Positions 10,032 to 63,460 of a stretch of 64,000 nucleotides of DNA are shown one piece after another. The stretch covers positions 1 through 64,000 of the forward strand of contig MEQB01000003.1 of NCBI GenBank assembly GCA_001770015.1, given 5' to 3'. Position numbers and translations under genes: made by a program. This DNA is from Bdellovibrionales bacterium RIFOXYC1_FULL_37_79. Lineage in GTDB: Bacteria; Bdellovibrionota; Bacteriovoracia; Bacteriovoracales; Bacteriovoracaceae. The notes under the pieces are model-generated. The model had not been told where the DNA came from, made no database searches, and was given only the letters and a program-made list of their open reading frames with translations. The first letter of the stretch is position 1. Every line of letters starts with the position of its first letter.

Positions 10032-10042
10032 ACTTTTTAATC

Positions 10043-10271: not shown

Positions 10272-10280
10272 TTTTTTTTG

Positions 10281-10309: not shown

Positions 10310-10330
10310 TAAATACGTCTAAATTATCGT

Positions 10331-10405: not shown

Positions 10406-10419
10406 CTAATTTTCAACCT

Positions 10420-10454: not shown

Positions 10455-10641
10455 CTTGATGTAAATCAGGATGTCAATATTTTATGGCAATTAAAATTTA
10501 TAATGTATTTTTTTAAATATGATTTTCATAAGTAATGACCAAAAATAAAATAACTTGAAAAAAGATTGAATGAATTATTGAACAATATTATTATTAATAT
10601 GTTATATTTTTACCAAGCAGCGTTATGAAAAAGGAAAAGCG

Positions 10642-12400: not shown

Positions 12401-12434
12401 ATTACAATCCTACATCACAATAATTCATATTAGA

Positions 12435-16368: not shown

Positions 16369-16382
16369 AGGTGATCCGTGAA

Positions 16383-17180: not shown

Positions 17181-17266
17181 TGATAAAAACTTCCGTTAAT
17201 TTTTTTTTTGCTCCTTCTGCCTGCGCCAAGCGTTATGTGTTAATATTACAGCTTCAAGAAATGAGG

Positions 17267-17295
17267 TGGACAATATTTACAAATGACGTTATAAC
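17267..17295 (+). promoter_or_regulatory. Promoter upstream of leader ORF and nfo-like gene
   Basis: -35 TGGACA (17267-17272), 17-bp spacer, -10 TATAAC (17290-17295), each matching five of six consensus bases. The start near 17302 would give a leader of about 124 nt before the nfo-like ATG. Confidence 0.55.
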
Positions 17296-17345
17296 GCATC
17301 ATCAAGTCGCTATCTAAATGATGACATTCTTTAGGAGTTACAGCA

Positions 17346-17393
17346 ATGAAAATTTCGCAAACTTGTTTTTCAGAAAAAAAAATTATTAAGTAA
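17346..17393 (+). CDS. Possible 15-residue leader peptide
   Basis: ATG 17346 begins a 15-codon ORF (MKISQTCFSEKKIIK) ending TAA at 17391-17393. A good AGGAG (17333-17337) lies 8 bases upstream. It lies between the promoter at 17267-17295 and the nfo-like start at 17426. The strong ribosome site and position suggest a translated leader, but so short an ORF can arise by chance. Confidence 0.3.
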   Translation: MKISQTCFSEKKIIK

Positions 17394-17425
17394 ACGAAAC
17401 GTCAATTTCATAAGGAGTTCAGTTA

Positions 17426-18265: not shown

Positions 18266-18781
18266 TCAGTTTGGTCCCTTGGTTTCTTCCTCATCCTCCA
18301 AGTCTTTTTCCAGAATATCTTTATCGGTTATATTAATTTTTTCCTTGGAATTAATATATGTTTTTACATTTTGAACATCAGATATGAGCCAGTTCTCATT
18401 TTGTTTTTCAATTTTCGCAATTTTTTTGACTTCTATATTAAATTTAGCTTCACGTTTTTTATCATCTTTAAAATCTACATAACTCAAATTGTAAGTTATA
18501 AAACAAATATCAGCTTTACAATTCTCTAACACAATTTTAAAACTCTTCTTTTGAAGCTTGTCTACAGATGCATATTTTTTAAACTCCACTTCATCCATTT
18601 CGGCAATCAGGTTTTTCAATCTTCCATGAGTTTGTTCCAACAATGCATCCCGGCTTTGATTTTCTTGAAAGCGATAGGAAATAAAATCAATCAAGGCCCT
18701 TTCAGCCGTTTTTTCTTTCCTGCAAGAAATAATCAGAGTTGAAAACACCAATAAAATAAATGTCATTTGTTTCATATTCAA
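18266..18781 (-). CDS. Lipoprotein of unknown function
   Basis: A 171-residue predicted lipoprotein with lipobox IISC (Cys20). The mature part is charged, with a Cys-x-x-x-x-Cys pair (CKADIC, about residues 87-92) and a beta-rich NENWLISDVQN stretch typical of small periplasmic domains. It ends in an acidic tail. It overlaps the upstream PilZ-like membrane gene by 4 bp, so the two are translated together. I recognise no family. Confidence 0.65.
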   Translation of the reverse strand: MNMKQMTFILLVFSTLIISCRKEKTAERALIDFISYRFQENQSRDALLEQTHGRLKNLIAEMDEVEFKKYASVDKLQKKSFKIVLENCKADICFITYNLSYVDFKDDKKREAKFNIEVKKIAKIEKQNENWLISDVQNVKTYINSKEKINITDKDILEKDLEDEEETKGPN

Positions 18782-19515
18782 GTCCTAGCAAAAAAAGGGG
18801 TATAACCTCTATCCCTAATTATAGTATAAAAATCTCTCCAACCCCAGCTTGTTTTTTCATTTTTAGTCTTAATAAATTTAAGTCCGTAACCTTTGTCATA
18901 AGAGGAGACAATTTTCCCGTATTCCTCAAAAGTTTCATTTTCAAATTTCAATCTTAAAATAATAGGCGATTCCATCAATCGCATATCCATTTTTTGTTCT
19001 GATTCATCAATTAAACAAAAAATACCTCGCTGATCCCAATTGGTCAGTTTAATTGGAAAAATAACTCCACTTTTTAATTCAATTTCTGATACAAAATCAT
19101 AATAGAATTTTTTCCAGCAGTCATATTTACTATATCCTGGACGATAAACGACATCTTCCAGTTCGATATTCCAAAGTAAGTAGTAAGTAAAAAAAATGAG
19201 TACATGAAAAAAAATCAACACCAGAACAATTTTGTCAAGTTTATAGAAAAAAATGTCAAATTCACTCAACAGGGTCAGTATCATAAACAAAAGTATTACA
19301 AATTTCGACCATCTTTTAACCAGATAAACTGACACCATCGAAACCAAAACCAGCAGTAATAAAATTTTATTATTAACAATAAAATTAAAACTTTTCACCA
19401 AATTAAAGGCAGATTCACCACTGTCAAGGGAAGCCAATATATAAGAGTAAAGATATGACAAAAATAAGAAAGCAATATATTGGTAAACAATAACACTTCT
19501 TCTAAATAATCTCAT
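18778..19515 (-). CDS. Membrane protein with PilZ-like C-terminal domain
   Basis: The 245-residue protein has four hydrophobic helices in its first ~115 residues and a soluble C-terminal part (about 130-235). The latter resembles a PilZ domain: LTNWDQRGIFCLID takes the place of the D/N-x-S-x-x-G strand, and KGYGLKFIK fits the G-x-G-x-x-F strand. PilZ domains bind cyclic di-GMP. The N-terminal R-x-x-x-R motif is not clearly identifiable, so ligand binding is uncertain. It is coupled to a lipoprotein gene by a 4-bp overlap. Confidence 0.6.
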   Translation of the reverse strand: MRLFRRSVIVYQYIAFLFLSYLYSYILASLDSGESAFNLVKSFNFIVNNKILLLLVLVSMVSVYLVKRWSKFVILLFMILTLLSEFDIFFYKLDKIVLVLIFFHVLIFFTYYLLWNIELEDVVYRPGYSKYDCWKKFYYDFVSEIELKSGVIFPIKLTNWDQRGIFCLIDESEQKMDMRLMESPIILRLKFENETFEEYGKIVSSYDKGYGLKFIKTKNEKTSWGWRDFYTIIRDRGYTPFFART

Positions 19516-19550
19516 ATATAAACCATCGCCTTATTTTGATACTGTTTAAC

Positions 19551-19579
19551 TTGGTAACCCAAAGATTTCGTAATATAGT
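19551..19579 (+). promoter_or_regulatory. Promoter of ferredoxin gene (leaderless transcript likely)
   Basis: -35 TTGGTA (19551-19556), 17-bp spacer, -10 TATAGT (19574-19579). Transcription would begin 7-9 bases later, at or within two bases of the ATG at 19588. No Shine-Dalgarno is present, which is consistent with leaderless mRNA. Confidence 0.5.
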
Positions 19580-19587
19580 TATTATAT

Positions 19588-19782
19588 ATGATAACAAACC
19601 TAAAAATCCAATCCAACTGCATAAAATGTGATATGTGTAAAATACTTTGCCCGGAAAACGCCATTATTAACGTTGAAAATGAATATTTTCTGGAGACATG
19701 GGCCTGTTCGTTGTGCAATATTTGCGTAAAAATTTGCCCGGTTGATTGTATAAAAAGCAATAAGGATTGCGATGAAATTTAA
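19588..19782 (+). CDS. 2[4Fe-4S] ferredoxin
   Basis: This 64-residue protein has two complete C-x-x-C-x-x-C-x-x-x-C-P motifs: CIKCDMCKILCP (Cys11, 14, 17, 21) and CSLCNICVKICP. It is a low-potential dicluster electron carrier in the cytoplasm. It is convergent with murU, which ends 28 bp away, and divergent from the PilZ-like gene. No redox partner is encoded nearby. The start is set by the predicted promoter and the absence of any upstream alternative. Confidence 0.88.
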   Translation: MITNLKIQSNCIKCDMCKILCPENAIINVENEYFLETWACSLCNICVKICPVDCIKSNKDCDEI

Positions 19783-19809
19783 AAAACCCTTAAGCGTAAA
19801 AAACAACCA

Positions 19810-20751
19810 CTACACAACTTCATCAATAAGTTCATTAAAATATAATCCCGTCGAATTAATAATGGTTTTTTGATTGGACTTTAAAATAATTGCTTGATAA
19901 TTCTGTGGATTACTAAATGGGAACTTTGAAAAATTTAATACCTTTTTATCGTAACAATCTGATTTTTGCCCCGTCATTATGGGCCCAGCAATTCCCAATC
20001 TGGAAAACAAATTAACCTGGGAATCAAATTCATCCGCCACTTTAAAGCAAGTCTCAAAGTATCGTTGAGATGTTCCAAAATCATAGTAATGATAATCTCT
20101 TGCTGAAGTAATAAAGATTTGATCAGATTTGTAATTAGCAACCGTCTCCCAAAAATTAGAAACCCCAGGCACATATGTCAATCTATCCATATTAATAATT
20201 CCCATTCCTGAAAAAGTAAGATAGGAATCATTTTTGTTTTTTTGAATGTTTTTAATATTGATAATCTCTTGCAAAAGATTGTCTTTTACAACCAATTCGT
20301 TATACCCATCTTTCAAAGAACAATTTAATGGGAATAAAACAGCGGTATGACGGCTTGATTCTATACATGCCCGCTCCCAAATCTCCGGGTGTGGAAAATA
20401 AAACTGATCAGAATTCAAAACCAACAACTTTGAAAAAGCTCCTTTTTTCAATTTTAATAGGTTATGGATGGTGCCTCCACTTTTTAAAAGCACTGGTTCA
20501 TGTAAAAGAATTATATCTCTACCATATTCTTTTTGCTTAATATATTCATTGATCTGATTGGACAAATGATGAGTATTGATAAAAATTCTCTTAATTTTGA
20601 GATTTCTTAAATACGTTATCTGGTAATCCAATATGGTTTGTTCAAATATGGGCCAAAGTGGCTTGGGTAACTGCTTTCCTATTATTCCCATGCGGGTACC
20701 AAATCCAGCACATAATAGGAGAGCAGTATCAATTGGTGTAATAATGTCCAT
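19810..20751 (-). CDS. murU: N-acetylmuramate-1-phosphate uridylyltransferase MurU-like
   Basis: A 313-residue nucleotidyltransferase. It has the N-terminal NTP-binding loop LLCAGFGTRM followed by LPKPLWPI, then EPVLLKSGGTIHNLL and the metal-binding LVLNSDQFYF. Sequence alone would allow a hexose-1-phosphate nucleotidyltransferase. The gene overlaps an AmgK-like kinase gene by 23 bp, and this pair defines the MurNAc recycling route that converts MurNAc-1-P to UDP-MurNAc and bypasses de novo synthesis. Its C-terminal ~80 residues have no obvious motif. Recovery of peptidoglycan sugars would suit a predator or a recycler. Confidence 0.8.
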   Translation of the reverse strand: MDIITPIDTALLLCAGFGTRMGIIGKQLPKPLWPIFEQTILDYQITYLRNLKIKRIFINTHHLSNQINEYIKQKEYGRDIILLHEPVLLKSGGTIHNLLKLKKGAFSKLLVLNSDQFYFPHPEIWERACIESSRHTAVLFPLNCSLKDGYNELVVKDNLLQEIINIKNIQKNKNDSYLTFSGMGIINMDRLTYVPGVSNFWETVANYKSDQIFITSARDYHYYDFGTSQRYFETCFKVADEFDSQVNLFSRLGIAGPIMTGQKSDCYDKKVLNFSKFPFSNPQNYQAIILKSNQKTIINSTGLYFNELIDEVV

Positions 20752-47401: not shown

Positions 47402-48514
47402 TTAAATGTTTAACATCAGATATCCACCACGAAAAAAATCTCCTACTCCGCAGTCATTTTTATCATTTTTTAATAAATGCACAGGACAATTCATTAACTT
47501 TTTAACTTCTTGTCGACTGTGACCATTAAATGCCCTTCTAAACTCAACAACACCATCTCCATTTGGGGCCGCTCCAGTACCTGTTTTTCCCTTATAACCA
47601 ATTAGAACATCGCCTTGTGTTGAAAAAATATCTAACATTTTTTTGAAAATCATTGATTTGGGATACTGATGTGTTAACTTATAAAGATTTTTTGCTAGAT
47701 GAAAATTACAAACATGAGTATTATCCGTACTCCAATTAACTACTAATGGTAAAACACATTTTATAAAGTCGTCTCCGTATATTTTTTTTAGTGGAAACGT
47801 CATATTATCATCTAAAAACCCATCTATATTTCCTTCCTCCAAATCCCATTTCGCCAACGCTACAGCAAGATTTACCTTAGAAACTTTAACTTTTTCTAAA
47901 AAATCATACATAGCAACGACATCATTTGGATTAGTATATGCTGCTTGAAATGCCATTTCTGCCCCAATCACGTCATTATACGAGGCAGAGGGGTTAACTA
48001 TCCAATAAGCTTCATGAAAAAGCAAAGCCATCTGATCATTGCGACTTAGTTTATTAAAGTCCGGAAGAAGGTAGGTAAACTTTTGAACAGTATCCGTAAT
48101 AGCGAATAACTTGAGTTGCGTACTATCCACACCAGTCACTCTTCTAAACTCCTCCATAAGTCTTTCGTAAATCTTGGGCGTTAATTGTTCAGGCTCAGCA
48201 AATAAATATTTTCGCTTAGAAGAGGGAATCATTGTCTCTATAAAAACACCCTTGGTTTTAAGGTCTATTGTTTCAAGATTAGCAATATAACTAATTAAAT
48301 CGTCTAATGCTGGTAATTGAAATGTCATCTCATTCTGATTATTTAATTTTACATAAAGTCCTGCACTGTAGAATGACATATATTTGCTATTCGTTACGAC
48401 ACCTCCACCTCCATTTCCAACTTCTTGCCCGTCGGTTCCCACCTCTTTCCCGGCGGCAAAAACATAAAAATTAAATAAACCGACTAATAAAATCAAAAAT
48501 TTAAATTTATTCAT
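47402..48514 (-). CDS. Exported protein with Gly-rich N-terminus
   Basis: A 370-residue protein with signal peptide (1-20, ending FAA). A striking Gly-rich N-terminus (GNGGGGVVTN) resembles that of other secreted proteins in this lineage. A helical domain contains ALLFHEAYWIVNP (about 165-178), which is similar to the LLxHEx segment of a protein group I have seen beside TIGR02147 genes, but a full metalloprotease HExxH is absent. It ends with a Cys pair near NCPVHLLKNDKNDCGVG. It overlaps the regulator gene by 4 bp, so it is the regulator's direct partner. Confidence 0.65.
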   Translation of the reverse strand: MNKFKFLILLVGLFNFYVFAAGKEVGTDGQEVGNGGGGVVTNSKYMSFYSAGLYVKLNNQNEMTFQLPALDDLISYIANLETIDLKTKGVFIETMIPSSKRKYLFAEPEQLTPKIYERLMEEFRRVTGVDSTQLKLFAITDTVQKFTYLLPDFNKLSRNDQMALLFHEAYWIVNPSASYNDVIGAEMAFQAAYTNPNDVVAMYDFLEKVKVSKVNLAVALAKWDLEEGNIDGFLDDNMTFPLKKIYGDDFIKCVLPLVVNWSTDNTHVCNFHLAKNLYKLTHQYPKSMIFKKMLDIFSTQGDVLIGYKGKTGTGAAPNGDGVVEFRRAFNGHSRQEVKKLMNCPVHLLKNDKNDCGVGDFFRGGYLMLNI

Positions 48515-49329
48515 AATTTCTCCTTAGAAACTCTAAAAAATTGAGTTGATAAACAATACAAATTGTCCTTGTTTTGGTTTTCGTGATTCATTACATATGT
48601 ATTTATCTCTTTTCGAAAGTTAACTATCTTTTCAAATATTTCTGGAAGTATTTCTTTTGGTAAAGCTATGGTTAACGAGGAAAATATTCTTTCATCAATA
48701 TCTTGCTCACCCAAGGCATTCATGGCAGCCTTGAGTTGCAATGAATGATGTTGTCTTATGGCCATAGAAGGGATCTTTTCGCTTGTGGTACTCACATACT
48801 CATTAACTTTATAAACTTTTCCTTCCTTGATAATAAAATCCAAATCAACAAGTCTTTTAAGAGCTGATTGGATTTCTTCTTTGGAAAATTTCAAAATTTC
48901 TTCCAGGCCTTCTAACGTTGGTGGCAGGTCATCCAATTTTAAAGCCTCAATTATTTGATAATGAATAGGTCTTGAAATTTGTTTAAAAATATCATCATCA
49001 ACAAATTTTTCAATAGATTGAATATTTTCTTTGTAATTTTGATTAATTTTTTCAATTGCTTTTTTTCGAGATACTTTCGATCTAGAATGACTCGCTTCGA
49101 CCAGATGTAAAAATACTTCCTTGTCTTTATCCGTCCATTTTAAAGAGGAAATCATTGACCTTGCTCGCTTATAAGAAAAACCTCTTTTTTTAGAAAAAGC
49201 TAAACTTAACCTTGAAGGTTCAATTCCAAGGTCACGGGCAAAGGCCCGAAGGGAGTACTGATCATTAATAATCTTTCTATTATTAAATTCAGTTTGAAGC
49301 ATATGAATATATTTTTCTTGATAATTCAT
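48511..49329 (-). CDS. TIGR02147-family protein (putative regulator)
   Basis: A 272-residue protein of the TIGR02147/DUF4423 type. An N-terminal helix-turn-helix-like part (about 20-65, YSLRAFARDLGIEPSRLSLAFSKKRGFS) precedes the conserved helical DUF4423 region (SRPIHYQIIEALKLDDLPPTLEGL, then MAIRQHHSLQLKAAMNAL). The family is concentrated in Fibrobacter and Bdellovibrio-like bacteria. ATG 49329 is chosen because a promoter lies at 49336-49364, making the open extension to 49395 untranslatable from it. It heads an operon with three exported proteins. Confidence 0.82.
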   Translation of the reverse strand: MNYQEKYIHMLQTEFNNRKIINDQYSLRAFARDLGIEPSRLSLAFSKKRGFSYKRARSMISSLKWTDKDKEVFLHLVEASHSRSKVSRKKAIEKINQNYKENIQSIEKFVDDDIFKQISRPIHYQIIEALKLDDLPPTLEGLEEILKFSKEEIQSALKRLVDLDFIIKEGKVYKVNEYVSTTSEKIPSMAIRQHHSLQLKAAMNALGEQDIDERIFSSLTIALPKEILPEIFEKIVNFRKEINTYVMNHENQNKDNLYCLSTQFFRVSKEKL

Positions 49330-49335
49330 GATGCC

Positions 49336-49364
49336 GGTATAAGTCACTTTAAAATTTAAGTCAA
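49336..49364 (-). promoter_or_regulatory. Promoter of TIGR02147 operon (leaderless start likely)
   Basis: Minus strand: -35 TTGACT (49364-49359), 17-bp spacer, -10 TATACC (49341-49336). Transcription would start at about 49329, the A of the ATG. No ribosome site precedes that ATG. Confidence 0.5.
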
Positions 49365-49477
49365 TAGTTTGTGAAACAAAGTGTTGCACGAACAAAGAAA
49401 CATGAATTTTTTATATGGTTTCCGGTCTACACCAAAACTCATCTAACTGATTATACCTTTCGCCTTATCTTTTTTAA

Positions 49478-49757: not shown

Positions 49758-49801
49758 CCAAAACTCGATAAATATTAATAAAAGTTGACCAAAACTCGAT
49801 T
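49758..49801. repeat. Two 13-bp direct repeats at the ATPase promoter
   Basis: ACCAAAACTCGAT occurs at 49758-49770 and 49789-49801, 31 bp apart (about three helical turns). The second copy begins inside the -35 box and fills most of the spacer of the promoter. This layout suits a repressor or autoregulator operator. Confidence 0.6.
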
Positions 49802-49814
49802 TATGTGTAAAATG
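49786..49814 (+). promoter_or_regulatory. Promoter of DUF4143 ATPase gene
   Basis: -35 TTGACC (49786-49791), 17-bp spacer, -10 TAAAAT (49809-49814), each five of six. The start near 49821 lies upstream of ATG 49833 and rules out the more distal in-frame start at 49785. Confidence 0.65.
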
Positions 49815-49832
49815 GTAATAAGAGGATTTCTT

Positions 49833-51020
49833 ATGAAAGACCGGTATTTAAATAAATTAATCGTTGAAGATGCCCTCGCTTCCTTAAAAATTGCCTTCGT
49901 AACCGGGCCTAGACAGGTTGGGAAGACCACTCTTTGCAAACAAATTCTCGAACAAGCAAAAGAAAAAACGGCTTATTATACCTGGGATGATGATGATTTT
50001 CGTCTGGCATGGTTGCAATCTCCCAAAACGCTAGTTGAGGGAAAAAAAATTGTTGTTTTTGATGAAATCCATAAGGATCGTAAATGGAAAAACAAATTAA
50101 AAGGATTGTTTGATATTTATGGTAACGACACAAATTTAATAGTTTCAGGAAGTGCACGGTTGGATTATTTTAGAAAATCAGGAGATAGTTTGCAAGGAAG
50201 ATATTTTCCCTATCGACTTCATCCTTTTACTCTTGGAGAAACTCCTAAGATAAAACCTCCTTCGCAAAGGGATTGGTTTGAGCATGCGACTTTAAGTGAC
50301 ATAAAACTTGATGACTTGCTCAAACTTGGCGGATTCCCTGAACCTCTTATGGGACAAAATTTAAATAAGGCCACCCGTTGGAGAAATCTTTATAAAGAGA
50401 GAATGATTAAAGAAGATTTAAGAGATCTACAAAATGTGCGTGATCTATCCGTACTTGATAATTTATCCCTGCTCCTTAAAACTAAAGTGGGAGGTCAACT
50501 TTCCTATGAATCCATTCGTAAGGATTTATCAGTTTCCTTTGAGTCTATTCTTAGATGGATTGATCTGCTAGAAGCGGTTTATTATTGTTATCGAATCAGA
50601 CCTTATTCAACCAAAATTAAAAATTCACTCACGAAAGAGCCAAAACTTTTTCTCTATGACTGGTCAGGAATCGAAGATGAGGGGGCAAAATTTGAAAATA
50701 TGATTGCAGGACATCTATTAAAAAATGTACATCTATGGACTGATGGTGCCATGGGAGATTTTAAATTATTTTACTTAAGAGACAAGCAAAAAAGAGAAGT
50801 AGATTTTCTTATAACCTGTAATAACAAACCTTATCTTCTTTTAGAGGTAAAATCCAATCAAAATACCCTCACTTCGCCTCTCATTCATTACAACGAAGTT
50901 CTAAAACCTACCTTTTGTTTTCAACTCGTCCGTGAAACAAAAAAAGAAAGAAATGCATCACTACTTCATCCCAATATTAGAATTGTTCATGTGGATAAAT
51001 TTTTATCTTCCTTAAACTAA
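49833..51020 (+). CDS. AAA ATPase with DUF4143 domain
   Basis: A 395-residue protein. The N-terminal ATPase domain has Walker A GPRQVGKTT (Lys31), Walker B VVFDEIH and the sensor VSGSARLD. The C-terminal DUF4143 domain (about 190-395) includes GGFPEP and ends in a nuclease-like KREVDFLI...LLEVKSN, the E/D-x-D...E-x-K order of PD-(D/E)xK folds. This widespread family has no firm function and is often solitary and mobile. AAGAGGA precedes ATG 49833. It stands alone next to decayed genes, consistent with acquisition. Two promoter repeats hint at tight control. Confidence 0.88.
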   Translation: MKDRYLNKLIVEDALASLKIAFVTGPRQVGKTTLCKQILEQAKEKTAYYTWDDDDFRLAWLQSPKTLVEGKKIVVFDEIHKDRKWKNKLKGLFDIYGNDTNLIVSGSARLDYFRKSGDSLQGRYFPYRLHPFTLGETPKIKPPSQRDWFEHATLSDIKLDDLLKLGGFPEPLMGQNLNKATRWRNLYKERMIKEDLRDLQNVRDLSVLDNLSLLLKTKVGGQLSYESIRKDLSVSFESILRWIDLLEAVYYCYRIRPYSTKIKNSLTKEPKLFLYDWSGIEDEGAKFENMIAGHLLKNVHLWTDGAMGDFKLFYLRDKQKREVDFLITCNNKPYLLLEVKSNQNTLTSPLIHYNEVLKPTFCFQLVRETKKERNASLLHPNIRIVHVDKFLSSLN

Positions 51021-51239: not shown

Positions 51240-54200
51240 ATGCATAATAAAATGAATTTATTTATAATCACTTTCCTTATCCTTTGTGTTTCAAGTTGTG
51301 GCCTGAAAAGACCAGGGGCCACTTCTCCCACACCTGACAAATTCTCCTTTGAAAAAAATATCTTTACCAATCCGGATGGAACCAAGAAAAGCTACATGGC
51401 TGGTTGGGCCAGTGAATCAAGCAACGGAACTTATGGAAAATCATGGATCCTGCATAATTATAATATGGCCATGCACTGCAATCTTGTTTTCGATGTAAGA
51501 GAACAATATTTAGTAGGACTTCAGATCGATCCATCTTATCCCAACGATCAAAGCAGATGGAAAGAAGTATTAACAATACCAATTCTCAAACATTACTACC
51601 TGGAAAAAGGAAAAGATAATTACAATCGGGAGACAAATGAGATCGTAGAAAATTCATCAAGAAGCTACTGGAAAAATCGAACCCACATCAAACTTGATTT
51701 TTCTGGCATTAAAATTTTGGAAGAAGAATTTAAAATTTTTTGGGGACATGACAGCACTATTATCACTGGCGTTGAAGATGAAGAAGTAACAGAAGAAAAT
51801 GGCAAAACCTTTATTGCCTTTACCGCTTCCATAACCAGTTCATTTTTCGGTAGCGAAATGCAGGGAAAATTTCGCTTTAACTTCCTTGAATACAAGCATG
51901 ATCATCAATTTAAAAAAATAAAATATGATGAAAACAACGCAAAAAAAATTAATCCTATTTTTATTATGGGAAAAAAGGTGGATGGACTTAATCAGATTTT
52001 ACATGTAGCCAGATGGGATCTTGAAAATAATAACTTGCCAATAAAACTTTACGCCAGGAATTTTCCCGATGAATATAAGTCAATTGTTGAGGATGTTGTA
52101 AAAGAATGGAATGTGACTTTTACAAAAGTATTTATGCCTGAGATAAAAGACATATACCAGAATTATACCGAATATTTTGCATTGGAATTCATTGATAGAA
52201 AATACGCTTTTGATTTACGCTATCCAACCATTAACTGGGTTAGTGACAGGGAAATCAGTGAACATGGGCCGCTTGGCATTGCCATGACTCATGCAGATGT
52301 GCTGAATGGAAAAATCCAGTGGGGAGCTGTTAATATTTTCGGGGGGACGATTGAAGGTTACCTGGATCATTATTATCCACTGAATTCGGGCAAGGAAGAA
52401 AACCAATATAAAATAAATAATCTGCAAATGGTTCCACGGTTTCCAATTACAAAAAAGCAATTAATGAGATTAATTGGAGAGAATAATCAAGTGCCCAAAG
52501 GGTTTAATAATAATTTTGATATTAGCGGAATGAAATTAGAAAAATTTAAAAATAAAATTGGAGATTCTTTAAATCTATCTTCACTACTGTCCAAACAGGA
52601 AAAAGAAAATTATGTATTAAACGTAATTAATGAAATTTTTGGAGAAGCAAGAAATGAGCAAGAAAAATATGCTCAAAAAATAATCGACATAACGAATTCC
52701 GTTCAAGATAGACAGGATAAAATTCTTGGATATAACCTTTCAAACAAAAAATCCACGGAAACCAGTGAACTTACCAAGGAAGAAAAGATGCAAATTGCCC
52801 TTTCCCCTTATGCATCCCATATCGAACGCGGAAGTGTGCTACAAAACAATGGTGTGTTTGACCTGGATCGCAGGTTTAGTGATGTAATCGGTGGCTGGCA
52901 AGAGGGATTGAAAGAACAGGGTATTGAACACTATCCTGAAGCCTTAAGAGCAATGTTAAAGGGACTAATATTACATGAAATGGGCCATATGTTTGGACTC
53001 GGCCATCAATTTAAAGAAAATATTCTACCTGCCCAAGGAACTGTGCCTGATAAATATCTTTTTGGCGATGAACACAGTCATCACAATCATTTAAAAGAAG
53101 GACTTGTAAAAAGATCCACTAAAGAAAGTGGTTATACGAACTATACATCTGTAATGGGATACCGACATCCAAAATCAGAGGTCCTGACTGATTATGACGA
53201 TTTAATCCCTGGCCCCCAGGATTATCTGACCTTGATGTATATTTATCGAAATAAATATCCAATTTACCAACAAGGCCAAAATGACTTTGAATTCCTAGAC
53301 GTTTCATCTGGTGGTAAAATTCCAAACACCGCCGCTTATTTTCCAGCCTGTAATGACTTAGAGGCAAGTCTTTATGCAGATCCGTATTGCAATAGGCACG
53401 ACCGTGGAAACAAGGCCAGTGAAATTATGGCCAGCTATTTTGATGGAATAATTAATAATCTAGACACAAAATTATTCTCGTTCACAGATCAGGCCGGCGG
53501 CAATCCTGAAGCCAAAGAAATGTATTTGTGGCAACAATCTCTTCTCAATTTAAGTAGAATTAGGATTTTTTATGATTATATGAGACAAAAATACAGTAAA
53601 CAAATTGCTGAAATCGTGGCCAAAGATGAGCAGAATTTCATGGAGTTTTATGATACATGCAGCGGTAAAATCAATCACAATAGCAAATTAAACAATCTTT
53701 TTAACCATTATGAAGAATTAAAAGAATTATGTATCGCCAATGGCCAGGCAATTAATGAACTAACCTTGCTAATGTCACTGGATGCCGCTGATTACAGCAA
53801 ATATGACCGAGACAAATATATGATGCCCGCGGGAATGAGTGCGTTGGATGTAAATAGAGACTATGGTCGTTTTTTTGGTACCTGGAAGGAATTAACCGCC
53901 ATCCCAATCAAAACCAGTGCACTTTACTATTTGACCACCACTTCACCATCCATGCTTTACAATATGGAATTTGCTCCAATCCCCAAATATTCTGACAGCG
54001 AGTCACACTATTCCTATGCCACACTTTACCCTGTGGAATATACCAAATCACTTCATGCAGCAGTTAATGAAAATATAAAATTACCTTCGGAAAATGATGA
54101 AAATCAAAGAACAATAGTAGGTCGCCTCATTCATTCAATTGGTGGATTTGCGTTTATGAACCAATCCACCAACGATCAAAATTTGGGTAAGGCTGAAAGA

Positions 54201-54899
54201 ATACTTGAAAAAATCAGAAATCAAGTTGGCTTTCAGGTATCACTTGGAATGGTCATTTTAAAGGAACATAAATTTGACGGAAAAACCCAGAGTAAGAAAG
54301 TTTCCCATTTTACAGCCGGACTTTATGATCTTTCTACTCAAAGAATGACAGGAACTCAATCAGTGCATATTCTTCCAGGTAAAAAATTGTTGGTCAGGGG
54401 TCTTGATGGAACATTTATCATACCCACTGGTTCTCCCGAAATTAAATTTTTCGGGGAGAATAAAGATTCAAGCGGTCTTGCTTATAGTTATGTAATTAAA
54501 GTTGAATTTGATGACGAACGGGACGATTTACTTTCCAAATACTCACTAAAGTTTGCTCTTAAATCGCTCCACAATAAAGTGATGGATGAATGTATCCACA
54601 AAGGTCCGGGAAATGAAATGAACGGACTTGATTATTTTTTTAATGAAAACGGTGAAGGGTTTGAAGGCTTCGAATATAACAGTAATATTGGAGGCAATCC
54701 CCTCAGTCAGGATAAATTCTTCGAATCAGTTGAGAAACAATATAAAATTTATTATACAAAAGGTATAGAGGGAAAAAAATTGCCCAGTCCGGATACTTGT
54801 GCAAAAGCAGTACAAGGACTTAAGGCAATTGTTACCACCTCCGGTCTTTTACAAGGTATGGTTTTACCTACCTTGCTTCAAGTACAGGAGATAGAATAA
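51240..54899 (+). CDS. Giant metzincin-type lipoprotein
   Basis: A 1219-residue predicted lipoprotein (lipobox VSSC, Cys20). Residues 1-270 are beta-rich. A helical insert follows (about 400-520), and then the zinc-protease signature HEMGHMFGLGH (His579, Glu580, His583, His589) preceded by a long helix. A metzincin Met-turn, SVMGY with Met639, follows 50 residues later. The C-terminal ~550 residues have no recognised domain. All catalytic residues for an HExxHxxGxxH protease are present. It probably acts at the cell surface or periplasm. AAGGAA precedes the ATG. The stop overlaps the next gene's ATG (TAATG), so the trio is translated together. Confidence 0.8.
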   Translation: MHNKMNLFIITFLILCVSSCGLKRPGATSPTPDKFSFEKNIFTNPDGTKKSYMAGWASESSNGTYGKSWILHNYNMAMHCNLVFDVREQYLVGLQIDPSYPNDQSRWKEVLTIPILKHYYLEKGKDNYNRETNEIVENSSRSYWKNRTHIKLDFSGIKILEEEFKIFWGHDSTIITGVEDEEVTEENGKTFIAFTASITSSFFGSEMQGKFRFNFLEYKHDHQFKKIKYDENNAKKINPIFIMGKKVDGLNQILHVARWDLENNNLPIKLYARNFPDEYKSIVEDVVKEWNVTFTKVFMPEIKDIYQNYTEYFALEFIDRKYAFDLRYPTINWVSDREISEHGPLGIAMTHADVLNGKIQWGAVNIFGGTIEGYLDHYYPLNSGKEENQYKINNLQMVPRFPITKKQLMRLIGENNQVPKGFNNNFDISGMKLEKFKNKIGDSLNLSSLLSKQEKENYVLNVINEIFGEARNEQEKYAQKIIDITNSVQDRQDKILGYNLSNKKSTETSELTKEEKMQIALSPYASHIERGSVLQNNGVFDLDRRFSDVIGGWQEGLKEQGIEHYPEALRAMLKGLILHEMGHMFGLGHQFKENILPAQGTVPDKYLFGDEHSHHNHLKEGLVKRSTKESGYTNYTSVMGYRHPKSEVLTDYDDLIPGPQDYLTLMYIYRNKYPIYQQGQNDFEFLDVSSGGKIPNTAAYFPACNDLEASLYADPYCNRHDRGNKASEIMASYFDGIINNLDTKLFSFTDQAGGNPEAKEMYLWQQSLLNLSRIRIFYDYMRQKYSKQIAEIVAKDEQNFMEFYDTCSGKINHNSKLNNLFNHYEELKELCIANGQAINELTLLMSLDAADYSKYDRDKYMMPAGMSALDVNRDYGRFFGTWKELTAIPIKTSALYYLTTTSPSMLYNMEFAPIPKYSDSESHYSYATLYPVEYTKSLHAAVNENIKLPSENDENQRTIVGRLIHSIGGFAFMNQSTNDQNLGKAERILEKIRNQVGFQVSLGMVILKEHKFDGKTQSKKVSHFTAGLYDLSTQRMTGTQSVHILPGKKLLVRGLDGTFIIPTGSPEIKFFGENKDSSGLAYSYVIKVEFDDERDDLLSKYSLKFALKSLHNKVMDECIHKGPGNEMNGLDYFFNENGEGFEGFEYNSNIGGNPLSQDKFFESVEKQYKIYYTKGIEGKKLPSPDTCAKAVQGLKAIVTTSGLLQGMVLPTLLQVQEIE

Positions 54900-57800
54900 T
54901 GAAAACAAAAAAATTTTTATTACTAATCAATCTCCTGGCTATTTTATTATGGAGTGCTTGTTCCAAAAAAACCATAGACCGAGATAACCATGAATCTGAA
55001 AGTGCGTATGTGGACAAACAGGTTCAAATCGCAGAACAACTACCAAGTGAACTGGATGGTCTTCGCTCTTTTGCCCATGACTTACCTACTCTTAATAAGA
55101 AATTAGAAGATCCTGCTTTTAAGATTAACGAGAAAATTATAACACCTCTTAAAACATATTTTTTTAACAGCTCCATGATTTCTAACAGCGACTACACCAA
55201 CCAAACCATATTTCACAAATTATTCAATTTGTTTTCCAGGGCCATTTTGATTCAAACCGTAAATGAAAAAAACCAGGGATTAATAGATCAATTCTACAAA
55301 GTATTATTGGAGGCGTGTGCAGACGATATATCCAATTGTCACGCCCTGGAATTTTATAAGAGAAGTCCATTTTCATATCAAGTTTTAAAGAATTTACTCG
55401 AAACCAAGATGAAAAAAAGTGTTATTGCCAAGTCTTCAAAAGGGATCATGTCTAAGGAGTACATCCAAGATTTCAATGAAACCACCGAACTACTTTATGT
55501 ATGTAGGTATATAAAACACCAGAAAGATAATCATTTGGATGAAATAACCATTAAGCTGATGAATGACTATCAAACCCTACAAGGATCTAAAGAAGCCAAA
55601 AAAATTGAAAAAACCTTTCATCTTAAACCAATTAAAGTTGCAAAATTATTATTCAATTGGTTTGACACCAAAGATCAAGACATGCTCGGCAATGCGTTTA
55701 AACTCTCACGAATTGATTCAAATATTGGCGATTACAATTTTGCTGCCAAAAATTACTTATTACTTGCCTCAAAAGTTCTTTTAAATGATCCTGAAAAAAG
55801 CAAAAGCCTGTTTGACGATGAATTAGAATCAATCAAAGAATCTTCCAAGCACAAAAGAGGAAGTTATTTTTTTATAGCCAACAAGATCGAGCATATAAAA
55901 AAAATTAATGACCCGAAAAACATTAATAATGAATCACAAAAAACGCTGAAAGTGCTGGATGAAATTGATCCAAGTTTTAGTTTCAAGGCGGAAGATTTAG
56001 TAATTTTGAATAATGATTTGATAAAAACAGATAATTCAAATTCAATTTATCTGTTTTTAATTGACCGGCTTTATGAAAACCATTTTAGTCTGGAAGATAC
56101 CAATATAATTTGGGGACATTATATAAAAAATTTAAAAGACAAAGCAGAAGTTGAAAATGAATTTTTAAGGGTTGCCAGACATTATCTTCAAACAATGATT
56201 TTTTATAAAGTTGTTTCATCGCATAACGAGCTTAAAAAGAAATTTCATGAGTACAATGGTTCAAAAGAAAACAAGCTAAAGAGTGTTTTAAATTTTTCAA
56301 ATTATTATTTCAAGGACTGGGGGGAAACTCTTGAAAGAGCTAAAAACATTCAAAACTTTATACAAACACATTTTTATCACGGAAATAATTCCACCAAGGA
56401 ATACATCAACTTATGTAATTCTATTGAAGTCCTGGATGAAAATATAAAGATATTTTCCGTATGGCCATTAATGATGTATTTTTCATACCAATTTAAAAAC
56501 GAGAACACTTCAAAGATCTCCAACTTTCTAAACACTGAATTTTCCATTGATGGTCGTGAACTTATCCGGATGTTTAACGAAACTGAATCAGCCTGGATAC
56601 CTTTAACAGCCGATAATAAACCCATCTCAACGTTAAAAACCATTTATTCACTCTCCTATTTATTTTCCATGGGATTGTTAAACAACTCCGGTAACGAGCA
56701 AGATCAATCAGCTGATTTTTTTATCAGTTTTGTAAAAAAATTAACAATTACCATGCGCAATGATTTAAGTGAACATATCTCAAAATTCAATAAATTAGTG
56801 ACTCGCCCGGAAATGAATAAATACCTTAATGCCTGCGATGCTTTTATTAATATGGATAAAAATAGGGAACCAATCAAAGTTGAACTTTCTTTGACGGATC
56901 TGGATAAAACGTTGTTTATTGGAACAGAAAATGCCGGGATAGGCTCCGCATTTTTAAAATTTTATCAATCATCTCAAAACACCCAAGACTTCTTGGTATC
57001 CAATCAACTAATAAAATTTTTAAAGGAAATTAATTCTCTCCACAACTTTATAAATCATGTTATCAAAATTACAAATCAAATTTACGAAACAACCCTTGAG
57101 CAAAAAGTTATTGCGGGATTAATTTCCAAGCAGGAACAGCAAGAAAGATTAAAGAAAATTAATTCCACTGTTAATGAATTAACAAACAATACAACTAAAC
57201 TAAGAAGAGAATTTGAAAAAGGTGTTTTCAAACTTTACAGTGATTTGGATAGATGCATGGTAGATTTTTTATCTCTTGAAAATTCACTCAGACACCATGT
57301 TTTGGACAAGATCAAGCCTTACTTTAAAAACATTTATAAATTACTTAATAACACTTCACCTGATGAAAATAATATAATACCCATAAATGGCCCGGAAGGT
57401 TATCGGGGCTTTGATTCAATGATCTCCAATAATAGTTACAATATGCATAAAATTGATATTATGATCAAGATTGGTGAAATTCTTAAAAATACCAGTTCTA
57501 TCAAATACAATGGTAAAGATATTCTTATTGCCCCATCAATCACTCCACCTAGTAATTTTTATAACCTAGAGATAATCAAACGACCGAAATCGAGTGATAT
57601 CAAACCCATTAACAATGAGGATAACTACCACGAATTTGAAAATCAAATATTTTTAACAATGCTGACCTGGTCCAGCGCAAACGGGGAAAAATTTATTAAT
57701 TGGTTTGGCGAAACCTACGATCTTGATAAAATCATCCAAAAAATCGAACTTTCCCGTGAATTACTAAAGGCTTCCTATTATCACTCTTACAACGGAATAA

Positions 57801-58414
57801 AATCCATTTCTCCCAATTCCATCATTCAAGCACTGATACGAGTATCTGACTATTTGAATATCTCAAATAAAGACATGACTTTATTACAGCTATTTAACCA
57901 AGAATCAAAACACAACATCGATCAAATCAGACAATTATTTTATAAAAATAATACGTTGATACCCTACACAGAAAATTATTTCTTAACACTTAAGGATGAG
58001 TTAATACCTAAAACGTATTTAGGAATTGGCCAAGGTACCATTATGGAGACCATACATTTTTACAAGTCACAAAGGGATTTGGATAAGTTTTTCTTTAATA
58101 TTGACAAAACTGTATCAGAAGGCATTAAAGAGGCTTATCAAGATACCGCAAACATAAAAATGAAAACCATAAAAGACTTCATGCGTGCCTGTGAAAAATA
58201 TCAAGATACTGTAATAGTAAGCAGCCATTATCTTGACTCTGATTTTAAAAACTTTGATTCCCAGGAAAGAATCTATAATCCGGAGGTATTTGAAGATAAT
58301 ATCAATTCAATAAGAAAAACATTTTATGAAGAGACCGGTTGTTTTTATAACAAGACAAGTACAGATATTAATAACTACTTTAAGATTAACATTGATACAT
58401 GCGAAAAGTTATGA
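54899..58414 (+). CDS. Giant lipoprotein, second of the coupled trio
   Basis: A 1171-residue predicted lipoprotein (lipobox WSAC, Cys21) of unknown family. It is almost wholly alpha-helical, Asn/Lys/Ile-rich, with no zinc motif. A Cys pair near residues 140-147 (ACADDISNC) lies in a segment that resembles one in the third protein (FCDNYTPDC). Another matched stretch is INWFGETYDL here against LDWWANDNTS there, with similar following spacing. The last residues contain further Cys (ETGCFYN, TCEKL). The ATG overlaps the first gene's stop by one base, and its own stop overlaps the third gene. It probably forms a complex with its neighbours. Confidence 0.65.
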   Translation: MKTKKFLLLINLLAILLWSACSKKTIDRDNHESESAYVDKQVQIAEQLPSELDGLRSFAHDLPTLNKKLEDPAFKINEKIITPLKTYFFNSSMISNSDYTNQTIFHKLFNLFSRAILIQTVNEKNQGLIDQFYKVLLEACADDISNCHALEFYKRSPFSYQVLKNLLETKMKKSVIAKSSKGIMSKEYIQDFNETTELLYVCRYIKHQKDNHLDEITIKLMNDYQTLQGSKEAKKIEKTFHLKPIKVAKLLFNWFDTKDQDMLGNAFKLSRIDSNIGDYNFAAKNYLLLASKVLLNDPEKSKSLFDDELESIKESSKHKRGSYFFIANKIEHIKKINDPKNINNESQKTLKVLDEIDPSFSFKAEDLVILNNDLIKTDNSNSIYLFLIDRLYENHFSLEDTNIIWGHYIKNLKDKAEVENEFLRVARHYLQTMIFYKVVSSHNELKKKFHEYNGSKENKLKSVLNFSNYYFKDWGETLERAKNIQNFIQTHFYHGNNSTKEYINLCNSIEVLDENIKIFSVWPLMMYFSYQFKNENTSKISNFLNTEFSIDGRELIRMFNETESAWIPLTADNKPISTLKTIYSLSYLFSMGLLNNSGNEQDQSADFFISFVKKLTITMRNDLSEHISKFNKLVTRPEMNKYLNACDAFINMDKNREPIKVELSLTDLDKTLFIGTENAGIGSAFLKFYQSSQNTQDFLVSNQLIKFLKEINSLHNFINHVIKITNQIYETTLEQKVIAGLISKQEQQERLKKINSTVNELTNNTTKLRREFEKGVFKLYSDLDRCMVDFLSLENSLRHHVLDKIKPYFKNIYKLLNNTSPDENNIIPINGPEGYRGFDSMISNNSYNMHKIDIMIKIGEILKNTSSIKYNGKDILIAPSITPPSNFYNLEIIKRPKSSDIKPINNEDNYHEFENQIFLTMLTWSSANGEKFINWFGETYDLDKIIQKIELSRELLKASYYHSYNGIKSISPNSIIQALIRVSDYLNISNKDMTLLQLFNQESKHNIDQIRQLFYKNNTLIPYTENYFLTLKDELIPKTYLGIGQGTIMETIHFYKSQRDLDKFFFNIDKTVSEGIKEAYQDTANIKMKTIKDFMRACEKYQDTVIVSSHYLDSDFKNFDSQERIYNPEVFEDNINSIRKTFYEETGCFYNKTSTDINNYFKINIDTCEKL

Positions 58415-61400
58415 TGAAAGCAATAATTTTCATTTCATTTATTATTCTCATTAGCTGCACCAGGGAAAACTCTGAAAGTATCAAACATGATGTTTCTTTA
58501 TCTGATAGCTCATCTAACACTCCACAATCAACCGAGTCATTTACCGAAATCTTTAAATCCATACCTAAATATCAACCCAATCAATTGCTCATTCTTGCTA
58601 ATGAATTATTAAACCACGATATTGCAGCTAACGAGGAAATTACATCTTCTTTGGATTATAGAAACAAGTTAAAAATTTTAAACGGCAATCTTTTAAAAAG
58701 TACCGATGTGGCCAAAGAACATCCTTCCATTTTGGCACTTTTTAAAAAAAATATTTTTTGTGACAACTACACACCTGATTGTCCGGGACACAAACTCCTA
58801 AAGACCGGTAACTTTATACAGGAAGTATTGGTCAAAATCATTATTAGCGATATTAACAGCTCAAATCTTTCATCACAAGAAATGCTAAATGCTTTTTATC
58901 TCGCCTACGAAATATTAAAAATAAAAGACAAACAAATTTTGGACCGTTTGTTTTTAATAAGATATTCCATGCTCAGAAATTCCTCTGATCTTGATTCAAA
59001 CATAAAATCAGTATTAGACAAGCGTCTTGGGCTTGTTACCGACAGACTGAGTAAATCCACTCTTCAAAGTGAAAACTTAGACGAATTGATCAAATCTGTT
59101 CGACCCTGGAATTATAGCAACTACTTAACAGATGATTCAAGCAATCTGCAACAGGTACTTTTTATTCATTGGATCAAGCAAAAACCATCAGTTCAACAAT
59201 ATCAAGAAGCATTAGAAAGTGACAATTTGTCCATTCTAAATCAAATAAAAGAATTTTCACCCCAAATACTTGCTAACTTAAAAATTAATCAAATCACTCC
59301 TGACAAGTGTTATTATCTGCTTGATCGAACTTTCAACAAACATCTTTCCAGTGAATCTGCAAAAATGATCGTTTCCTCAATGGATGGCAACGAAAAATTA
59401 GACTGCATAAAACAAATTCAAAATTTTTTAAAAGGACGTATACTGATTACAACTAAAAACTCAAGCACCCAACTTTTAAGTATTATAAAAAAAATTAAAA
59501 AGGAGAAAATTTCCAATATTAAAATTTTTGAAGCCATTGAATCCCGGCTATCTGTTTTGACCAGATATTGGCAAAATGAACTTGAAAAATTCAAGTCTCT
59601 GGAAGAATTATTAAACGTTGAATTTGTGAACGTAAACAGCGATGATTTCGATCAATTAAAACTTTCTTTTGAAGGTCTTGGCGAAAAATTTCAAATGTAC
59701 GCCCAATACCCATCGACACTGTCTTTACTTTATCATTTCAAAGATATGATTTCCTCCAACGTTGGAATGGATTTTAGTATAAAGGAAAATGATGTTTCTA
59801 ACAAACTGGAAGATCTTCTGATCGGCGGAGAGTGGCCGGTGTTGGATTTTGGACTTAGAAATTACGGTGTTGACAAAACATTAAATCAAACTAAAATTTT
59901 TTATAGCTTTCAAAGCGCTTTATCTACCAATACCTTTAATGACCTCGAAACACCTCCTCTAAGTATTTTAGAATTTATAATCGATCACCTACCCACCCGG
60001 GAATATAAGTATTTAAGCAAGGAGCTTGCTACATTAAAACCTCATGAGATTAATTCAAGCTACAAAACAGTTTCCAAATTTTGCGAAAACCACGCTAAAA
60101 ACTTTTTGATCAATGATTCTTCTAAGTATAAATTTAATAAAAAATTTAGCGAACTAAGTTCATCAATCTTGTTTGATGCAAAAAAAGTTTTTGTTGTTGA
60201 TCATTCGGTTATGGAAAGATTTCCCGCCATGACTGAAATTGCCAGACTTGATTATGAAAGAAAAATCAGATTTGGAAGATTACTTAAAGATATCTACAAC
60301 GAATTTGCAAGCAAACAAAACAATCTTGTCATAATTTCCAACGACCTTTATGACTCTTGGGCAAAAAAACATCTGGAAACCCAAAAAAGTATTTTCAAAA
60401 CTAATCTGGATTATTCCAACAAAAGTTATTCATGTCTAAATCACGTAAAAAATATTCAAAAAATTATAACCAGAAAAGTTTTTAGCTATGAATACCTTTT
60501 TCTAAAAGAGGTGCATAAGCAAATGACTCTCTTAAGAAGTGGGGACCTTGATAATCTTCAAGAAGCAAATCATATCGCCCAAATCGGGCTCAACAATTTT
60601 TCAAAGAAAAAAGAGTACTACTTCAACAATCATATTTTTTCATATTCTAAAATTGCTTTTTTATTTCGCTTGAAACACTATTTAACTTCCATCACAGAAA
60701 TAGGCGATAAAAAACTCCCTGCCATTGCAAACAAACTGATTATTACCAACGACATGTATAATTTTGATGAAAATGATTTGATCTTATCCAAAGATATTCC
60801 CTACCATGAAAACGTAAATATTTTTATCAAAAGTGCTATGGGAAACTTACATGCCAAACAAAGCAAAAATAGCTTCCTGGATTGGTGGGCAAACGACAAT
60901 ACTTCCTATATGCTCGCTTCTAAGGTCAATACCTACCTGCAATTATATAGAACTAATATCCACGGATTAAACTCTTTAGTGGATGAAAACAAGATTATTT
61001 CCGAAATATTAAAAAATTACAAGCTTCTTGCTATCGATGAAACCAAAAATATTTATGGCATTTCAGAAAAAGAATTATTTCAACTTACCGGACTTGAAAT
61101 GGCCGCAAATGTACAAAATCCCCTTGATAATTACCATGGAGTAAACATCAATCATTACATTAATTCAACAGGTACCATGATCCATAATATCTTTAATGGT
61201 CCATCATCCTATTTTTTTAATTTTGCCATTGGAGACACTCTTATTTCTCAACAAACTACAGAGGAAATCCAAAAAATTGATGAAGGAGCCGATACCAGCG
61301 ACTCTTTAAGTAAAAACTATGGCGGTTACGACGAAGGATATAATTACTTCAGAGATAAAAACAGCATGGGTCCTTTAATTTTTGATGGATTTGAGACAGT

Positions 61401-61692
61401 TGAAAGCATTCTTGACAAAGAATTTAGTAATCTCATTAAATTTGATTTGGATAAAGTTAAAAGTTTTCATGAAATTATTTCCAATGAAAATATAATTCAT
61501 CCTCTTCTTAAAAAATACAATTTAAACCCAAACAATATGCTTATTAGGATAACTGATCATGAATCCCAATACCTTCCCAGGGAATTGATCAGTTCTGAAA
61601 TGAATGACCGACTAACAGATCACTACCACGAACTTCTAGATAAAATCCTCGAGGCTGTAGAAAATAAGAAAATTCAAGATATGATCAGATAA
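58411..61692 (+). CDS. Giant lipoprotein, third of the coupled trio
   Basis: About 1093 residues. The lipobox is LISC (Cys16 counting from ATG 58411). I choose 58411 because it makes an ATGA overlap with the preceding stop. The frame is open to ATG 58399, which would add MRKV and keep the signal peptide. It is helical and Asn/Ser/Lys-rich like the second protein, with the matching Cys pair near residue 115 (FCDNYTPDC) and WW motif near 830. The C-terminal region is distinctive, with HGVNINHYINSTGTMIHNIF followed by GPSSYFF and a Gly/Tyr-rich KNYGGYDEGYNYF. No known domain. Confidence 0.65.
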   Translation: MMKAIIFISFIILISCTRENSESIKHDVSLSDSSSNTPQSTESFTEIFKSIPKYQPNQLLILANELLNHDIAANEEITSSLDYRNKLKILNGNLLKSTDVAKEHPSILALFKKNIFCDNYTPDCPGHKLLKTGNFIQEVLVKIIISDINSSNLSSQEMLNAFYLAYEILKIKDKQILDRLFLIRYSMLRNSSDLDSNIKSVLDKRLGLVTDRLSKSTLQSENLDELIKSVRPWNYSNYLTDDSSNLQQVLFIHWIKQKPSVQQYQEALESDNLSILNQIKEFSPQILANLKINQITPDKCYYLLDRTFNKHLSSESAKMIVSSMDGNEKLDCIKQIQNFLKGRILITTKNSSTQLLSIIKKIKKEKISNIKIFEAIESRLSVLTRYWQNELEKFKSLEELLNVEFVNVNSDDFDQLKLSFEGLGEKFQMYAQYPSTLSLLYHFKDMISSNVGMDFSIKENDVSNKLEDLLIGGEWPVLDFGLRNYGVDKTLNQTKIFYSFQSALSTNTFNDLETPPLSILEFIIDHLPTREYKYLSKELATLKPHEINSSYKTVSKFCENHAKNFLINDSSKYKFNKKFSELSSSILFDAKKVFVVDHSVMERFPAMTEIARLDYERKIRFGRLLKDIYNEFASKQNNLVIISNDLYDSWAKKHLETQKSIFKTNLDYSNKSYSCLNHVKNIQKIITRKVFSYEYLFLKEVHKQMTLLRSGDLDNLQEANHIAQIGLNNFSKKKEYYFNNHIFSYSKIAFLFRLKHYLTSITEIGDKKLPAIANKLIITNDMYNFDENDLILSKDIPYHENVNIFIKSAMGNLHAKQSKNSFLDWWANDNTSYMLASKVNTYLQLYRTNIHGLNSLVDENKIISEILKNYKLLAIDETKNIYGISEKELFQLTGLEMAANVQNPLDNYHGVNINHYINSTGTMIHNIFNGPSSYFFNFAIGDTLISQQTTEEIQKIDEGADTSDSLSKNYGGYDEGYNYFRDKNSMGPLIFDGFETVESILDKEFSNLIKFDLDKVKSFHEIISNENIIHPLLKKYNLNPNNMLIRITDHESQYLPRELISSEMNDRLTDHYHELLDKILEAVENKKIQDMIR

Positions 61693-61936
61693 TCTTGGTT
61701 GTCGATGCACAATCAACATCACATCATGCCCTTTACTCCAATTTCAACACATAAATATTTTTAATAAACGATTTTTTAAACTTGAACCAAACAGAAAATT
61801 TATGGCATCTAATGAAAATTATTATTAAAATATCCACATACTTTTATACGTTGCTGGAAAAGAACCTGCTTGAAAAATTCGATATCTAATGCTACACCTA
61901 AATTCCAAATGGCATCATCTATCCCAAGGATATAAA

Positions 61937-63460
61937 ATGAAGTATTTTTTTACCTCACTATCACTCTGGCTCAGTATTCTTTGTCTAGTTTATGCCAATA
62001 CTCCCACTCTGGCAGATAAACTTGAAAATCAATGGCAAATATATAAAAATGCACAACATTACCTCTATCAAGTCGTAAGCAGTGGTGAAAAAGTCGACCG
62101 TACGACTTGGGAAAAAATGGTAAAACCACATGATGAGTGGAAATTCACGGATGAAGATTTAATGAATTTAACCAAAATGCAATCTGAACGAATTCTTGTT
62201 GCTAAAGAAGTGGCCTACCAAAACTCTGTCATTAACTTTGATGCTTTCAGAAAACTTCCAGCGGAGGAAGCAAAAATAATTATTCATAATTTTTGTCAGC
62301 ATATGCCCAAGGGGGGAATGTTACACGTTCATCCCTTTGGAACTTTTACTCGAAACACGTTGACCCAACTCATGATACTAAAAAATCCTATTCTGGACTG
62401 GATTGAGTTCCTGAACTTCTTTAATAATCCCGAAAATACTTGTATGATCTACCCAGAAGAAAATAATTGGATGAGTACTTTTATTAATGGAACAAGATTT
62501 TCTGATTTATCCCCAATAGATCAGAAAAAAACCATTGATTTATTCTTTTTACCCTTTGGTAATCATGATTTTACTCGTTTTGATTCTGTTTTTGTTTTTC
62601 TTGGTATTCCAGTAAGCACTTATCAAGACTACCTTTTTGCGCTCGAGAATTTTGCACAAAAAGCGTCTGCACAAGGTATTTTCTATATTGAATTTACCAC
62701 TGATATACTTACAGATCATGCTTTAAATTTTTATAAAAATTTAGCAGATACCTATTTAAAAAATTTCGGTATAATATTAAAAATTAATGAATCACTTTTC
62801 CGACTAGACTCCGACGAAAACATGCGAAAAAATACACGTACACTTTTGATGCTAAATGACCCTATATTAGTCGGTGTTGACCTGCTTGGAAACGAATCAA
62901 ACAGCCCCACCCTGGAAAATGGCCAAATCCCCTACGCACTGGTGGGCAACGCACTTACTAACGGAACACACAAAATAAAAAGAACCATTCATGCTGGAGA
63001 ATTAGGAGATGATCGCAATCCGCGAGATGCTCTGATTTTTGGTGTTGAACGCATCGGTCACGGTATCAAATTAGAAAATGATCCGATTGCGCTGGAATAT
63101 GCGGCCTCAAAAAAAATTGGAATCGAGATCAATCTTACAAGTAACATTCGCTTAAAGGCCGTCAATGATATTAAACAACACCCCTTCGTCAAGTATTTAC
63201 GCCTTGGTATTCCCGTAAGTCTAAGCACAGATGATGAAGGTATTTTTGAAACAGACATGAACACTGAATGTGAAATAGCTATCTCCCAAAGCGATATCAC
63301 CTACGCTGAATTGAAACAAATGGCTATCAATTCCATTGAAACTGCATTCGTCGGCGATCAAGAGAAAAGTGAATTACTGTCGAAATTACTTCAACAAATC
63401 AATAAATTTGAACAAACCCTTACATCATTAATTTTGCCCAAGAAAAAGCAAGAGTTATAA
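61937..63460 (+). CDS. Exported adenosine deaminase (ADGF-like)
   Basis: A 507-residue amidohydrolase converting adenosine to inosine. From ATG 61937 (AAGG upstream) it has a signal peptide (about 1-20, ending VYA), so it is periplasmic or secreted. An ADGF-type N-terminal extension follows. The metal and catalytic residues are visible: HVH in GMLHVHPFG, then IHAGELGD, ERIGHGIKL and STDDEGIF (usual S-x-D-D-P; Pro is Glu here). An open extension to 61889 lacks a ribosome site. Extracellular ADA would feed purine salvage from host or prey material. The 244-bp gap before it shows no clear gene. Confidence 0.85.
   Translation: MKYFFTSLSLWLSILCLVYANTPTLADKLENQWQIYKNAQHYLYQVVSSGEKVDRTTWEKMVKPHDEWKFTDEDLMNLTKMQSERILVAKEVAYQNSVINFDAFRKLPAEEAKIIIHNFCQHMPKGGMLHVHPFGTFTRNTLTQLMILKNPILDWIEFLNFFNNPENTCMIYPEENNWMSTFINGTRFSDLSPIDQKKTIDLFFLPFGNHDFTRFDSVFVFLGIPVSTYQDYLFALENFAQKASAQGIFYIEFTTDILTDHALNFYKNLADTYLKNFGIILKINESLFRLDSDENMRKNTRTLLMLNDPILVGVDLLGNESNSPTLENGQIPYALVGNALTNGTHKIKRTIHAGELGDDRNPRDALIFGVERIGHGIKLENDPIALEYAASKKIGIEINLTSNIRLKAVNDIKQHPFVKYLRLGIPVSLSTDDEGIFETDMNTECEIAISQSDITYAELKQMAINSIETAFVGDQEKSELLSKLLQQINKFEQTLTSLILPKKKQEL

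Follow-up and report, generated by a model that had tools for sequence, protein, structure and literature searches.

The three genes at positions 51240-61692 of the window (the whole analysed stretch, 64,000 nucleotides of contig MEQB01000003.1 of Bdellovibrionales bacterium RIFOXYC1_FULL_37_79) are one copy of a conserved Bdellovibrionota system, in which a lipoprotein metzincin (M) is encoded together with two giant lipoproteins (A and B) and usually with a small putative outer-membrane barrel. The system is real and is undescribed in the open-licence papers searched: our literature searches there returned no description of an M-A-(barrel)-B system, in line with the initial annotation, which had recognised no described system of this architecture. 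Its carriers are mostly uncultured relatives of predatory bacteria.

Sequence features of the metzincin and its two partners

The initial annotation had read the locus as a trio of lipoproteins of 1219, 1171 and about 1093 residues, joined by overlaps of one and four bases and led by a protein with a complete HExxHxxGxxH site (residues 579-589) and a Met-turn at Met639. The coordinates bear out the sizes and both junctions (TAATG and ATGA; Table 1), and profiles built with the window left out recovered all three genes (M, 1126 bits; A, E 4.6e-87; B, E 3.2e-60). M, A and B all carry lipoprotein-type signal peptides, in which a hydrophobic N-terminus ends at Cys20, Cys21 and Cys16, respectively, and these lipobox cysteines are invariant across the respective family alignments, so that the lipoprotein assignment stands as well. 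A Shine-Dalgarno-like motif lies inside gene M ahead of the start of A. The overlapping starts imply coordinated translation; stoichiometry is not proved by the overlaps. An in-frame ATG further upstream would extend B to 1097 aa. Promoter and terminator scans gave hits at chance level only.

Table 1 Coordinates of the trio, its sequence features and associated genes (window positions unless another locus is named)
Feature	Position	Strand	Remark
Gene M (gene 1), lipoprotein metzincin	51240..54899	+	1219 aa; 44% identity to L081 M
Gene A (gene 2), giant alpha-helical lipoprotein	54899..58414	+	1171 aa; A-family HMM match
Gene B (gene 3), giant lipoprotein, A paralogue	58411..61692	+	1093 aa from ATG 58411
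Alternative start of gene B	58399	+	in-frame ATG
Lipobox Cys20 of M	51297..51299	+	invariant in M family alignment
Zinc site HEMGHMFGLGH, M residues 579-589	52974..53006	+	H/E/H/G/H invariant, 24 members
Met-turn methionine M639 of M	53154..53156	+	invariant in family alignments
Shine-Dalgarno-like AGGAGA	54886-54891	+	ahead of A start
M-to-A stop/start overlap TAATG	54897..54901	+	1 base
A-to-B stop/start overlap ATGA	58411..58414	+	4 bases
DUF4423/TIGR02147-type regulator	48511..49395	-	tentative associated gene
AAA_14/DUF4143 ATPase	49785-51020	+	directly upstream of trio
Exported adenosine-deaminase-like protein	61889-63460	+	just downstream of trio
Second operon of the window's genome (L016, G000:C2:54000-73900)	3143-14418	-	complete M-A-barrel-B
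Lone barrel gene of G225	L109:9171-10385	-	
2194-aa lipoprotein-like protein	L024:4498-11082	+	
2194-aa lipoprotein-like protein	L025:6330-12914	-	
Additional Met-zincin gene (L063)	G000:C73:63826-64140	+	
Additional Met-zincin gene (L063)	G000:C73:71140-71529	-	

M is a divergent Met-zincin of Pfam family PF16313 (DUF4953), as judged from sequence profiles. The family profile was matched by 21 of 24 M family members at E<=0.01 (best 5.6e-12), while none of the members matched DUF5117 or DUF5118. The window M itself scored 13.3 bits against PF16313, where the Pfam gathering cut-off is 24.2; despite this sub-cut-off score it was placed in the M family because of its strong match to the family profile. 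In the alignment of the 24 M proteins, which are about 1200-1450 aa long, the zinc-site residues and the Met-turn methionine (mature numbering 560, 561, 564, 570 and 620) are invariant, and M is predicted to be a zinc endopeptidase. The model of mature M reached a mean pLDDT of 76, with an ill-predicted stretch (360-520) directly before the catalytic helix, and sequence and fold searches of M against the PDB gave no significant match (fold TM <=0.07 on the query). Two more genes of the window's genome pass the DUF4953 cut-off as Met-zincins; their open frames are 834 and 1236 aa long, and neither has A or B neighbours within the stretch viewed.

The initial annotation had assigned no known domain to genes 2 and 3. 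This holds for Pfam, since a family-wide search found no significant Pfam domain in A or B; what reading alone could not detect is the homology between the two, which runs along their length (hhalign E 1e-103; window B against the A-family HMM, E 6e-32). Four cysteines are near-invariant in the joint A/B alignment, and both proteins are probably disulfide-containing. An AlphaFold2 model of a family member, the A protein of locus L095, is nearly all helix (mean pLDDT 86.8), and the PDB entries nearest to it, with weak scores (TM <= about 0.16), are long proteins of helical repeats, for example exportins and CAND1. A is thus predicted from the model to be an alpha-solenoid of its own kind, without a PDB match.

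Distribution, gene order and the barrel gene

Single-sequence searches with genes 2 and 3 were empty beyond their own genome, which would have left both as orphans; profile searches overturned this and found them in 21 of 369 Bdellovibrionota genomes. Long M was present in all 21, and no A or B homologue without M was found among the 369 genomes, where the initial annotation had named such homologues as grounds for rejecting its reading. The long-M profile gave strong matches in the same 21 genomes. It also picked up short fragments in G079 and G241, of which one lies at a contig start and the other in a highly fragmented assembly. If presences were independent, this co-occurrence would have a probability of about 3e-32. 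M likewise appeared to lack relatives when gene 1 alone was used in a genome-contig scan, whereas the family alignment yielded 28 loci in one genome per species (84,980 species), all titled as Bdellovibrionota-related MAGs; as the scan consisted of two short peptide patterns, it does not prove absence elsewhere.

Wherever a locus has all the parts, M, A and B are consecutive genes of the same strand that either overlap briefly or are separated by short gaps, and the order M-A-B recurs in every locus uncut by contig ends. The interpretation of the initial annotation is partly supported: a conserved functional unit with the metzincin first and two large partners behind it is borne out, and domain and structure searches returned no characterised secretion or toxin system. 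The initial annotation overlooked the usual fourth component (missing in the window), the paralogy of A and B, and a second, complete operon on another contig of the same genome (L016). A further copy (L015) lies in a genome of the same genus, and single genomes hold up to four.

In most loci a gene of about 276-453 aa lies between A and B, giving the usual order M-A-barrel-B; in L110 the order is barrel-M-A'-B', with A' and B' confirmed as homologues. Most members of this family begin with a signal peptide and finish in a YxF-like C-terminus of the outer-membrane type, and one matched PF13505 (OMP beta-barrel family), features by which the gene putatively encodes an outer-membrane-type beta-barrel. 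The barrel is missing from the window copy, L081, L088/L090, L091, L092/L097, L102 and L104. A single barrel-less lineage was rejected, as the well-supported branches of the M tree demand at least four changes and the tree itself a minimum of six. Genomes with barrel-less copies encode the barrel at another place: of 13 genomes searched, 12 had one. In the window's genome (G000) it belongs to the second operon, and in G259 and G312 to other operons; G225, which has several barrel-less M-A-B operons, has a lone barrel gene that one of the operons on its contig lies about 79 kb away from, and G224 has a corresponding hit. In G263, whose assembly is 74% complete, the barrel was not found. The cases of G000, G225, G259 and G312 fit a barrel that may be shared in trans between operons. 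A barrel-like gene beside the shorter M homologues also looked related, but the barrel profile matched none of these neighbours even at E 1.

In the M tree, the window M groups with that of L081 (support 100/100), a locus of another family within the phylum, and not with its own paralogue in L016 (31% identity), which is sister to the M of RIFOXYA1_FULL_36_14; the two operons of the window's genome therefore have separate histories. A homologue of the regulator encoded near the trio lies just upstream of the L081 operon (blastp E 8e-20), a weak link because DUF4423/TIGR02147 regulators are a common paralogous family. Conservation of the secreted gene at 47402-48514 beside this sister operon was rejected (E 0.74). 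Downstream of M-A-barrel-B, both genomes of the window's genus encode the 2194-aa lipoprotein-like protein, the L024 copy of which contains Calx-beta and RCC1 repeats.

Selection and divergence of the three genes

The partner proteins A and B change much faster than M. Mean pairwise identity within families is about 26-36% for M, 16-24% for A and 14-19% for B, and the window A shares about 17-21% identity with other A proteins. Purifying selection acts on each of the three genes, most strongly on M and least on B: in the L088/L090 pair, dN/dS is 0.012 for M, 0.037 for A and 0.069 for B, at a similar dS of about 0.4 for all three.

Comparison of two related genomes (L092 and L097) revealed 99% identity for M and about 90-95% for the flanks, while the 3' part of A and the whole of B share 56-88% nucleotide identity. 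The divergent segment (about 14800-20450) is sharply bounded and looks like an exchanged segment, a possible recombination event in this single genome pair. Such a segment is compatible with A and B being the variable, specificity-setting parts, and is no proof of it.

Proposed function and comparison with known systems

Taken together, we infer that M, A and B form an envelope protease complex, located at the outer membrane and probably at the surface, whose specificity comes from A and B and whose outer-membrane partner, the barrel, can be shared, a reading to which we give an even chance. M would be a lipid-tethered zinc endopeptidase, probably in the outer membrane; the solenoid lipoproteins A and B would bind to M and either present protein substrates to it or select them; and the roughly 280-residue barrel would serve as outer-membrane anchor or conduit, which for the window copy would have to come from elsewhere in the genome. 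Prey-envelope proteins and nutrient proteins are both plausible substrates.

Gene coupling of this kind can also serve periplasmic assembly machines, which counts against reading it as a sign of a surface complex, and lipoproteins of model Gram-negatives are sorted by default to the periplasmic leaflet. The latter, like the extreme purifying selection on M (dN/dS about 0.01), would suit periplasm-facing envelope maintenance, with M processing or degrading outer-membrane or periplasmic proteins of the cell itself, A and B as scaffolds on the outer membrane's inner leaflet, and the barrel as a client or as a docking site in the outer membrane. We consider this unlikely, as the presence in 21 of 369 genomes is patchy, the up to four copies per genome are unlike a housekeeping function, and A and B diverge down to 15-20% identity. 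Distinctly unlikely, too, is a secretion or assembly apparatus in which barrel and solenoids export M or other cargo, or mount it on the surface, M being either cargo or maturation protease: of all the parts the barrel is the one most open to sharing, as a conduit should be, and the order barrel-M-A'-B' exists in L110, yet several operon copies lack the barrel and homology to known secretion components was not found. That A and B recognise other cells in contact-dependent antagonism or recognition, with alleles swapped by recombination and M attacking a surface protein, appears improbable. The bounded divergent A/B segment and the several copies per genome would fit such a role, but that segment was observed once, and beside the operons viewed neither a toxin domain nor a small immunity-like gene recurs.

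A bolder version of the envelope protease reading, speculative and rather unlikely, is an undescribed class of surface proteolytic machine, in which a conserved metzincin blade is combined with exchangeable pairs of giant solenoid lipoproteins that set the target, one barrel serves several operons in trans, and Bdellovibrionota use the whole on proteins of other cells. Should A and B indeed be what sets specificity, the system would exemplify, in nature, a membrane-anchored protease whose targeting arms can be exchanged. Two large Pfam-less families are now placed in a genomic context and given a partner enzyme that can be tested. The phylum is known for its predators, and little is understood of their surface machinery.

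M resembles the PF16313 Met-zincins in its zinc site and Met-turn, and differs from them in its length, its lipid anchor and its A/B partners. For the barrel, Slam offers a possible parallel: Slam is reported to be an outer-membrane barrel serving several surface lipoproteins (PMC5449769, PMC9090332), and the likeness would lie in one barrel with several clients. The Slam/DUF560 family was absent from the Pfam and NCBIfam hits of 15 barrel members. For the operon, the comparison is with Treponema denticola dentilisin, where the three-gene lipoprotein operon PrcB-PrcA-PrtP gives rise to an outer-membrane protease complex and the accessory lipoproteins are required for expression and stability (PMC8167434). 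Both are lipoprotein operons that include a protease. Compared by description, the dentilisin protease belongs to the subtilisin family whereas M is a zincin, the gene order is another, and the partners are smaller (23 and 70 kDa), PrcA and PrcB being described as unique to oral spirochetes (PMC8167434). Because protease class and partners differ, M-A-B is not a member of the dentilisin type, and the two may rather be parallel in how they work.
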